Notes under the pieces: model-generated | Told to the model about the DNA's origin: nothing | Database searches by the model: none | The model's input: only the letters and a program-made list of their open reading frames with translations | Shown here: piece by piece, positions 10,893 through 13,578 of the stretch | Numbering within the stretch: position 1 is the first letter of the stretch | Layout of the letters: each line of letters opens with the position of its first letter | Translations under genes and position numbers: made by a program | NCBI RefSeq assembly: GCF_030127105.1 | Contig: NZ_CP126161.1 | Span: 496,001 to 560,000, forward strand | Length of the DNA: 64,000 bases | Direction: 5' to 3' | Source: Haloarcula pelagica | Lineage (GTDB): Archaea > Halobacteriota > Halobacteria > Halobacteriales > Haloarculaceae

Positions 10893-11288
10893 CGCACGCC
10901 TCCGGAGCCGGTAACCGCGCCGCACACGACCGACATCCCGGGAGCGGGGGGTATCGTCGATCGGACGTGACCCCGGGTACCGTCGGTTTTTGCATTCCCT
11001 TGCGTCATCTCTCTGTAATTCTATCCTCTGGTAGGGTGGCTGGTCACAAAACAATACTGATAGTAGATACATCGAAGAGAGGCACGAAATAATCAGATCC
11101 TACCACTGCACCCCTGGAGCGCCCCACCGGTTTCCCCTCGAAGCCGCTGTCGACGCTAACGACTGCGAGACACCCAGCAGCCGACTCCTAATGAAACTGA
11201 CTATTAATTCACAGTTAATATAAGCTATAATATGTCAGAACTGTTCAAAAATTTTTAATTTAATCGCGCCTGACAGTGACAATGTATC
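10893..11288. other. Intergenic region, AT-rich at its right end
   Basis: A stretch of 396 bases between the receiver-PAS gene and the 44-residue peptide gene. The left part is GC-rich and shows no coding signal. From about 11190 it becomes strikingly AT-rich, with runs of T and A, and ends in the promoter of the small peptide. No RNA gene or repeat was recognised. Confidence 0.6.
11252..11263 (+). promoter_or_regulatory. TATA box of the small membrane peptide gene
   Basis: TTTTTAATTTAA lies 26-37 bases before the ATG at 11289 in an AT-rich tract. This is a strong match in composition and spacing for a leaderless haloarchaeal promoter, and it supports expression of the short gene. Confidence 0.6.
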
Positions 11289-11423
11289 ATGTCCGATTCC
11301 ACCATGAAAGAGTTCCTGGCGGACCACCCACGAATGATCGGCGCACTGTTCACCATCCTGCTGTTGCTGTCACAGGCTGGGAACGTGGCTGCGAACAACG
11401 GTGCGACTATCAGCGGCCCCTGA
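11289..11423 (+). CDS. 44-residue hydrophobic peptide (DUF7503-like)
   Basis: A short gene encoding 44 residues. A charged N-terminus (M-S-D-S-T-M-K-E-F-L-A-D-H-P-R) leads into one hydrophobic helix (about 16-31, rich in Ile and Leu) and a small polar tail ending T-I-S-G-P. I recall a family of haloarchaeal peptides with the same H-P-R-M-I-G core and S-G-P end, catalogued I think as DUF7503; I am not certain of the number. No function is known to me. It has its own promoter and is convergent with the CHAT protease gene 61 bases away. Confidence 0.7.
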   Translation: MSDSTMKEFLADHPRMIGALFTILLLLSQAGNVAANNGATISGP

Positions 11424-11484
11424 GACGGTCTGGGAAAAGCTTCGCCTTCTTCGATTATGTGAACTTACACAGCAGCCACAGCCG

Positions 11485-13557
11485 TCACAGAAGCTTCTCG
11501 AACTGTAAAGCGGTACTCCAGCGTAGTTCGCCGTCTATACGGACCGGAACCTCTTCGAGTTGGACGAACTCGATCAGTTCTTCCCTGGAGACGTGGAACG
11601 TATCGAGCGAACCCGAACTCAAGAAGTAGTTGTCCCCGTTCTCGATGAACGGCATAAATATACTCCCTAGCCCTCTGTCGTCGGTCGCGTACGTGACAAT
11701 CTCCACCTCGTAGCCCTCGTCACACTCCGTGATGTCGAGGAGGTTCGGTGTCCCGCTGGCGGGTTGGGTCACCGTGATACCGCCGTCACCGACGACGATG
11801 TACTGGCCCCCCATCGGGCTGACTTCACGAGAGATGGTGAGTGCCGCTCGGAGCGGGAACCCGCTGTTGAGCAGGCGCGCGGTCGAACTCCCGATCTCGA
11901 CGGCGTCGTCGTTGAGGATCTCGTTGAGGGTGACGATCCCGCCGATCGCTCCGTTCTCGATGAGTGCGAGCCCTTGGTGGTAGGAGTTACACGCGTTCAA
12001 CAGGAACGTGTCGACGCCGACGGTGTCCACACTCGCGGCGTCGAGTTTCCCGTCCTCGCAGGTGAACCCCTCGTGGTCCGTGTGCCCGATGTAGTGGAAG
12101 AAGTCCGTCGGGGCGGCCAACACGTCGGCCAGGTCGTCGGTCGTCAGGTTCTCGCGGACGGTCACGTCGAACGGGAGGTCCGCTCGGTTGCCGTACACCT
12201 CGTCGGCGATCTGGCGCTCCTGTTCCATCCGGGCGTCGTTCTGGACGACGGTGATGGAGATGTCTCCGGCCGTCTCCTCCCGGTCCAGGCGGTTCCGGAA
12301 CGCGTCCGTGGTCAGTTTGCTGGCGCCGATGGGGATACTGTCGCCGATCCAGGCCTGTTCGAGGGTGTCCGCCGACTGCGGTTCGACGTACTCCGACTCG
12401 GCGCTGGTGTCCGCGCTCGCGGAACGGGTGATGACATCGTCCCTGGTGAACTCCGCTTCGAGTCCTGCGGGGACAGTCGGTTCGCTGGGGCCGGTACCCT
12501 GCTGCGTTCGAACGATAGCGAGGTCGTCGACGACGAACGGCAGTTGCTCGGCGTTCTCGGCTGTCGGGTCGATGTGGGTGGTCAAGCGCCACTCGGGGAC
12601 GTGGTCCGCGACCAGTTCGTACGGGATGTCGAGGTACGCTTCGACCTGTTCGGTGAGCGGGCGGTCGTACAGCGCGGCGAAGTCGATGTCGACGAGGGGT
12701 TCGATCTCTCCGCGCTCGTGTAAGTCGAGTTCGTAGTACCCCTCGGTCCTGGTGACACAGTCGAGGAAGAACAGCTGTTTGAGCGTCCGCTCGACGGCCC
12801 GCTCGTACCCGTCCGGTCCGGACAGCGAGTACTCGAAGCCGTCGTCGGTCGTCAGCCGCGGTGTCGGCGCCGGTTCCAGCGAGGCGCCCAGGTAGTACGA
12901 AAGCGGCGCGGCGACGAACGCGGCGGACAGCGTCGGCGGGAGTTCGAGCGTGACGCCGGTCTCCGGTCGCTCGATGGACTCGGGGATGTCGAGTTCGTCG
13001 CCGAGTTCCAGCGCCGGGGGATGACCTCGAAGCGTCGGATACGAGCGCTCGGGATCGGTCGTCTTGAGCGCCGACCCGAACGTCTCGATGGCGGTCAGCA
13101 TGTCCGTCGGGTCCGTCGTCGTCGTCACCGTCGCGGCCGGGCGGTCGTGGCGGGACCGCGCGCCGACCGCGACTGTCGTCGGCTCCGGGAACTCGATTCG
13201 TGTCTGGTCCATGTCGACGCTGACCTGCGCGGCCGACTCGACCCGGACGTACGTCTTGATCCGGGTACAGAGGTCCAGACTGTAGCTCTCGGTCGGGACC
13301 GACGCCTGTTCGAACTGCTTGACCTCCGCGACCGTCTCCCCGTCGGCGTCTCGGACGTAGACCGGGACGATGGTCGGGAGGACCAGCGAACTGGTCTCGA
13401 AGGCGACGGCCTGGCTGACCGGGAACCGAAACGAGTCGGTATCGACGGGCCGTGGCGAGACCGACTCTGGTGTCCGGAGCTGGTAGCGCTGGCGCTCGAC
13501 GCGGTCGATGACGCTGATTCCTGGCCTCTCGGCGAGTGGTTCGAACGTGACGTTCAT
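11485..13557 (-). CDS. CHAT-domain (caspase-like) protease
   Basis: A 690-residue soluble protein. The C-terminal third has the CHAT Cys-His pair: His492 in H-Y-I-G-H-T-D-H-E-G after a strand, and Cys523 in L-L-N-A-C-N-S-Y-H-Q-G. A segment resembling the rest of the fold follows (G-A-I-G-G-I-V-T-L and the R-A-A-L-T-I-S-R helix). The first 400 residues are beta-rich and acidic and match no domain I recognise; no TPR repeats are obvious. CHAT enzymes are separase/caspase relatives that act in regulated proteolysis, often in immune or cell-death systems. A 15-base palindrome lies just before its start. Confidence 0.8.
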   Translation of the reverse strand: MNVTFEPLAERPGISVIDRVERQRYQLRTPESVSPRPVDTDSFRFPVSQAVAFETSSLVLPTIVPVYVRDADGETVAEVKQFEQASVPTESYSLDLCTRIKTYVRVESAAQVSVDMDQTRIEFPEPTTVAVGARSRHDRPAATVTTTTDPTDMLTAIETFGSALKTTDPERSYPTLRGHPPALELGDELDIPESIERPETGVTLELPPTLSAAFVAAPLSYYLGASLEPAPTPRLTTDDGFEYSLSGPDGYERAVERTLKQLFFLDCVTRTEGYYELDLHERGEIEPLVDIDFAALYDRPLTEQVEAYLDIPYELVADHVPEWRLTTHIDPTAENAEQLPFVVDDLAIVRTQQGTGPSEPTVPAGLEAEFTRDDVITRSASADTSAESEYVEPQSADTLEQAWIGDSIPIGASKLTTDAFRNRLDREETAGDISITVVQNDARMEQERQIADEVYGNRADLPFDVTVRENLTTDDLADVLAAPTDFFHYIGHTDHEGFTCEDGKLDAASVDTVGVDTFLLNACNSYHQGLALIENGAIGGIVTLNEILNDDAVEIGSSTARLLNSGFPLRAALTISREVSPMGGQYIVVGDGGITVTQPASGTPNLLDITECDEGYEVEIVTYATDDRGLGSIFMPFIENGDNYFLSSGSLDTFHVSREELIEFVQLEEVPVRIDGELRWSTALQFEKLL

Positions 13558-13563
13558 CTGTGT

Positions 13564-13578
13564 CCGATCGTCGATCGG
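13564..13578. repeat. 15-base inverted repeat before the CHAT gene
   Basis: CCGATCG-T-CGATCGG is a perfect 7-1-7 inverted repeat, 7-21 bases before the CHAT start codon. A regulator site there could block transcription or translation initiation. GATCG-type palindromes arise by chance in GC-rich DNA, so this is tentative. Confidence 0.35.

Follow-up and report, generated by a model that had tools for sequence, protein, structure and literature searches.

The 64,000-nt stretch of the Haloarcula pelagica genome analyzed here (contig NZ_CP126161.1, positions 496,001 to 560,000; hereafter, the window) contains a gene for a 44-aa peptide and, facing it tail to tail, a gene for a 690-aa protein with the likely features of a cysteine protease. 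This arrangement raises the question of whether the two genes form a functional pair and, if so, which part of so small a peptide is of consequence to the protease.

The convergent genes and the predicted protease

The layout described in an earlier note on this DNA agrees with the sequence. The peptide gene (11289..11423, plus strand) and the gene for a predicted separase/CHAT-fold cysteine protease (11485..13557, minus strand) are convergent, and their stop codons are separated by an unstranded gap of 61 nt (11424..11484). The peptide belongs to DUF7503 (PF24335), for which Pfam states no function, with a score of 85.9 bits against a cut-off of 27. It consists of a conserved leader (11325..11393, plus strand), in which His-Pro-Arg is followed by the hydrophobic stretch MIGALFTILLLLSQAG and then by VAA, a signal-peptidase-like AxA motif, and of the C-terminal tail NNGATISGP (11394..11420, plus strand), which we propose to be the functional payload. 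The TATA box that had been noted for the peptide gene was recovered as an AT-rich, TATA-like element (11252..11262, plus strand) located 37 to 27 nt upstream of the ATG; the alignment of 146 upstream regions showed an AT-rich peak at the same positions (-37..-27), indicating conservation in relatives. Both genes are real, since the peptide exceeds the PF24335 cut-off and relatives of the protease occur in 268 of the 293 genomes of the order. The neighbors of the pair in the window are housekeeping genes (those tested being RR-PAS, DUF5788, PolX, rhomboid, ADH and ArsA). Upstream of the TATA-like element, most Haloarcula relatives carry a conserved box like TATATGTAGGTAC (window 11229-11288 and equivalent regions), which hints at specific regulation of the peptide gene.

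An AlphaFold2 model of the protease, built from 33 relatives (pLDDT 87.1, pTM 0.87), matched the structures of gingipain (Z 19.0), separase (Z 18.0 over 225 residues; Foldseek E 3e-7), SAVED-CHAT (Z 16.0) and the Craspase TPR-CHAT protein (Z up to 14.5). The matches fell mostly in residues 322-597 (11767..12594, minus strand), the stretch over which separase, gingipain and CHAT proteases align with it. On the basis of the model and these matches, the protein is predicted to be a clan CD protease, with the fold shared by separase, CHAT, gingipain and caspase. The CHAT identity proposed in the earlier note agrees with the predicted fold. No match was obtained in Pfam or NCBIfam at E values up to 1, and the family may be too divergent for curated profiles. 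A sequence search of solved structures with the protease alignment also gave no match. The proposed catalytic residues were confirmed as His492 (codon 12082..12084, minus strand) and Cys523 (codon 11989..11991, minus strand), and each was invariant in 196 of 196 distinct relatives. The globular shape of the model suggests that the protease is soluble.

Outside the core, residues 1-146 (13120..13557, minus strand) are modeled as a mainly beta-stranded N-terminal domain (AlphaFold2 of residues 1-328, pLDDT 94), and residues 147-320 are mixed alpha/beta. A known peptide-binding fold was considered for the N-terminal domain and set aside, the matches being weak and unspecific (sugar-enzyme and YidC beta domains, Z up to 8.7). 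No TPR-like helix array was seen in the secondary structure of the protease models, and neither a gasdermin nor another known effector was found beside the protease, where the partner is a DUF7503 or Gly-Pro-ending micropeptide; the absence of both TPR and gasdermin had been remarked on previously. Toward the C-terminus, residues 601-665 (11563..11757, minus strand) form a beta segment that diverges faster than any other part of the protease. Ahead of the core, residues 355-387 (window 12397-12495) were modeled as a low-confidence linker in which the arginines at 372 and 378 are nearly invariant; this linker is a possible self-processing site.

Pairing across the Halobacteria

The earlier note allowed that the two genes might be neighbors by chance. 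The adjacent pair was found widely in other haloarchaea, and the pairing proved genuine. DUF7503 was present in 249 of the 293 genomes of the order. Among 117 DUF7503 genes, drawn from 24 genomes that were mostly picked for carrying several copies, 99 were convergent with a listed protease match and none lay in another orientation within 1.5 kb of one; many of the apparent DUF7503 orphans, once fetched, also faced a previously unlisted protease. Of 80 named protease loci, 73 were paired (72 by script, plus L140). A small convergent partner gene was found beside 171 of 196 distinct proteases, a set that includes a batch picked because its members looked unpaired, and beside 55 of 56 new proteases in a later set fetched by protease coordinates alone. 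Pairing therefore far exceeds chance and is conserved across the Halobacteria. A relation by inheritance only, with no functional link between the neighbors, could appeal to the proteases that lack a partner and the peptides that lack a protease, but the pairing extends to both deep clades of the protease and to most of the genera sampled, the tails co-vary with the proteases, and the relationship is specific within genomes; the conservation tests largely refute this explanation, which we regard as scarcely credible.

The genes are often very close. The intergenic gap was 0 or negative in 68 of the 171 relatives with a partner and 10 nt or less in 114; the stop codons overlapped by 4 nt in 35 pairs and abutted exactly in 29. 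Such spacing, which leaves little room for separate terminators, together with the peptide gene's own promoter, would suit cis-antisense control, in which the tail-to-tail mRNAs overlap at their 3′ ends, one transcript silences the other and the peptide product is secondary. However, gaps between paired stops reach several hundred nt, and the amino acid sequence of the tail is under selection, as judged from synonymous changes within repeats and free codon use, so that we consider control of this kind very improbable.

The distribution of the pair also bears on the antiviral cell-death system that had been suspected at this locus. This suggestion was not upheld: neither protein has a PADLOC match to CHAT-gasdermin or other anti-phage systems, the neighbors are housekeeping genes, a scan of viral contigs found no relatives, and the protease, far from being patchily distributed, is present almost throughout the order. 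The negative scan of viral contigs also led us to reject viral carriage.

Pairing in cis is not obligatory, since 25 of the 196 proteases, all with the dyad retained, lack a Gly-Pro partner next to them and a few peptides stand without a protease in their vicinity. Several protease subclades of multi-copy genomes retain the dyad without an adjacent Gly-Pro ORF (L204-L208, L210, L211, L214, L215, L220-L222 and L226-L229), and in L214, L215 and L220 the convergent neighbor looks thioredoxin-like. Six other proteases without a Gly-Pro partner (L302, in the window's own genome at C1:3441170, and L258, L260, L263, L157 and L162) share the same kind of same-strand downstream gene, with VPIDVGRPRLRL near its end, which may be the regulator TbsP/DUF5821. 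In genome G180, five nearly identical DUF7503-like genes (L063-L067) are scattered on one chromosome with no protease beside them and may be stand-alone tails or the cargo of a repeated element. A further group of paralogs (L294-L301, e.g., L297:2396-4501 and L295:1361-3409) shares only the N-terminal half of the protease (residues ~7-360); the His-Cys dyad is absent from those that were aligned, two that were tested had no Pfam match, and by sequence they appear to be inactive relatives.

Full-length homologs outside the Halobacteria were found in one other family of the phylum (L290-L293). Three of the four keep the dyad, the Cys site being replaced in L290, and no convincing Gly-Pro partner was found for them, suggesting that the protease may predate its pairing with the peptide. 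The convergent neighbor of L292, an unrelated 151-aa ORF, also ends in SPPGP; this is probably a coincidence, because the similar ORF at L290 ends otherwise.

The Gly-Pro tail and its co-variation with the protease

The partners share a C-terminal signature. Gly-Pro forms the end of 154 of the 171 partners (that is, beside 154 of the 196 proteases), where about 2 would be expected from the 0.5% of background short ORFs that end in this way; the remaining 17 end otherwise. Partners too divergent for PF24335 still have the Gly-Pro end, and partners with this end accompany both deep clades of the protease. The residues ahead of it are diverse: 134 of 147 nine-residue tails of canonical partners were distinct, 122 were uncharged, and variability within the peptide is among the highest at positions -8 to -3. 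The Gly and Pro codons vary freely (35 nine-mers), indicating that selection acts on the protein; a DNA-level cause of the motif, such as a palindrome or a terminator, was rejected on the same grounds. Ribosome stalling at the Pro-stop junction was judged unlikely, because Gly-Pro also occurs internally in repeats and 17 partners end differently.

The hydrophobic helix is dispensable. Several lineages have partners that lack a hydrophobic segment altogether (L230, L231, L232, L267, L271 and L321), and the PF24335 model misses such Gly-Pro-ending soluble forms, as well as the repeat forms that occupy the same place beside the protease. The pair is present in all 12 Haloplanus genomes, with stops overlapping by four bases, and the partner there takes one of two forms, the canonical one or an array, lacking the helix, of 2-14 tail repeats such as ADGNGGGISGP-Y-N. 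The sister loci L245 and L246 illustrate the change: their proteases are 88% identical and their peptides share the start and an NGGGISGP tail, but the L246 peptide is canonical with a helix, whereas in L245 the helix is lost and the tail is repeated. The tree puts switches between canonical and repeat forms at two or more points. In L179, comparison of the 12 repeat units shows only synonymous variation at 11 of the 13 codons, and the linker residue that follows Gly-Pro is the one position where the amino acid differs; the repeated tails are under purifying selection at the protein level. Since partners without a hydrophobic segment are found in several lineages, the near-invariant element of the partner is not the helix but the nine-residue tail ending in Gly-Pro.

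These forms bear directly on the two roles that the earlier note had offered for the peptide, namely a substrate of the protease or a membrane pore that it controls. As a substrate or effector, the peptide would be cut by the protease, and either its hydrophobic part would act on the membrane in a gasdermin-like manner or its tail repeats would be cut into monomers. Separase-fold proteases often cut after Arg, and a basic residue of the HPR/K type precedes the hydrophobic stretch in 143 of the 147 canonical partners ([HN]P[RK]); moreover, the variable linker residue that separates the Haloplanus repeats recalls multi-copy propeptides. However, neither the helix nor the HPR motif is present in soluble partners, and the peptide of L250, which is soluble, contains no Arg or Lys, so that neither a single conserved cut site nor a pore can be the shared function. 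Because soluble and repeat-only partners exist, pore and substrate were both rejected in that capacity, and we rate the substrate or effector role as distinctly improbable.

When partners were shuffled among paralogs within genomes, the observed correlation of peptide and protease distances (0.434) exceeded that of the shuffled sets (0.03 ± 0.10), as did that of tail and protease distances (0.204 versus -0.03 ± 0.05), and 0 of 1000 shuffles reached the observed value in either case; co-duplication and recognition give the same signal in this test. A further test used phylogenetically independent sister pairs, in which the rest of the protease was controlled for. Here the tail co-varied with protease residues 601-665, with a partial r of 0.44 in 86 independent sister pairs (0 of 500 permutations) and of 0.64 in a validation set of 24 sister pairs gathered afterwards (0 of 500 permutations). 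The later set is the cleaner test, because the windows and the tail definition were picked after a first scan, and some of its species are related to earlier ones. The leader was more weakly associated with the same segment (0.27 in the full set; 0.18, not significant, in the validation set). The codons for residues 601-665 lie no more than a few hundred bases from those for the tail, and linkage may add to the signal; it is no easy explanation, however, because residues 666-690, whose codons are closer still to the peptide gene, showed no significant co-variation with the tail in sister pairs. Co-variation of the tail with residues 346-400 or 51-90 appeared in one analysis and was not reproduced. 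Given its co-variation with the tail, the 601-665 segment is our candidate for the tail reader.

Such co-diversification would also be expected of pherotypes, and the common form has the look of a signal peptide followed by a short released peptide: an AxA-like motif is present in 144 of the 147 canonical partners and lies exactly nine residues from the C-terminus in 127. As a secreted pheromone, the peptide would be freed from its leader by signal peptidase, and the protease would either sense its mostly uncharged, strain- or species-specific tail once this was re-imported or mature it. On the other hand, partners without a hydrophobic segment could not be exported by Sec, and their existence in several lineages suggests that export is not essential. 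The leader is, in addition, more conserved than an ordinary signal peptide, and an unsystematic look beside the pair noticed no importer or exporter. Overall, we consider a secreted pheromone rather unlikely.

A proposed peptide-protease recognition module and its relatives

Taken together, the linkage, conservation, selection and co-variation are most economically read as a two-gene module in which the tail would serve as cognate ligand for the protease encoded beside it and control its activity, and this is the reading toward which we lean. One gene would supply a cysteine protease with the separase/CHAT fold, located in the cytosol, and the convergent gene a tiny protein that would work through its last nine or so residues, the tail with Gly-Pro at its end. 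Binding of the tail to its own protease, for which the fast-evolving residues 601-665 are the most likely site, would control proteolysis, with specificity set by tail residues -8 to -3. The hydrophobic leader would only place the tail, by membrane insertion or export, and could be replaced by multiplication of the tail. Against this reading, the positive-inside rule predicts an extracellular tail for the common form, and hence its separation from a cytosolic protease, unless the tail returns to the cell or the peptide is never inserted. The unpaired proteases and peptides and the 17 partners with another C-terminus also weigh against it. As for the sign of the effect, we favor inhibition or licensing, as by securin for separase, with some trigger releasing the protease. 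A further extension, that this is a near-universal system of hypervariable peptide-protease signaling or self-recognition, in which each protease reads only its own tail and paralogs within a cell act as insulated channels, is put forward tentatively and is less likely to hold.

Each known system with which the module can be compared shares part of this design. Separase has the same protease fold and is controlled by a dedicated partner protein, securin; securin, however, is a large disordered protein, whereas the partner here has about 44 aa and a hypervariable Gly-Pro tail, and the archaeal module has no link to cohesin, inhibition by the partner being a proposal made by analogy. The type III CRISPR effector SAVED-CHAT shares the CHAT fold over the dyad region, but here no SAVED domain was recognized, the window offers no CRISPR context and the partner is a tail peptide. 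Craspase (gRAMP with the TPR-CHAT protein Csx29 and the substrate Csx30) likewise combines a CHAT-fold protease with a dedicated protein partner, and Craspase is reported to cleave Csx30 (PMC11106740). Our protease differs in its beta-rich N-terminus, modeled without TPR, and in having no CRISPR effector next door, and its partner bears no resemblance to a Csx30-type substrate. With the peptide-pheromone systems (RRNPP, Agr and Com) the module shares a short hypervariable peptide that ends a leader and co-diversifies with a possible reader; it differs in that the proposed reader is a protease rather than a TPR regulator or histidine kinase (no TPR-containing peptide receptor, the RRNPP feature, was seen in the protease model), that some partners have no export signal and that the genes are convergent. 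Within the open-access literature, we found no description of the module and no paper that names DUF7503 or joins a CHAT domain with Haloferax volcanii, only general papers on CHAT, caspases or quorum sensing. What appears to be new is the two-gene module, the enzyme fold being already known. If the mechanism is plain inhibition or pheromone sensing, the module would be a variant of those kinds.

Proteases of the separase/CHAT/caspase fold are central to cell death, cell division and immunity. The family examined here is an apparently undescribed branch, found in most genomes of the order, and its built-in ligand is of a length that can be synthesized. An unassigned caspase-like activity has been reported in Haloferax volcanii (PMC3615174), and we offer the family as a candidate for its source; this is a guess, and similar activity has been reported from archaea outside the Halobacteria. 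The pairing gives DUF7503 a function to pursue, and tail swaps would offer a direct test of peptide recognition in archaea. If the signaling reading is true and the tails are exported, the module would constitute an archaeal peptide-signaling system with specificity types.
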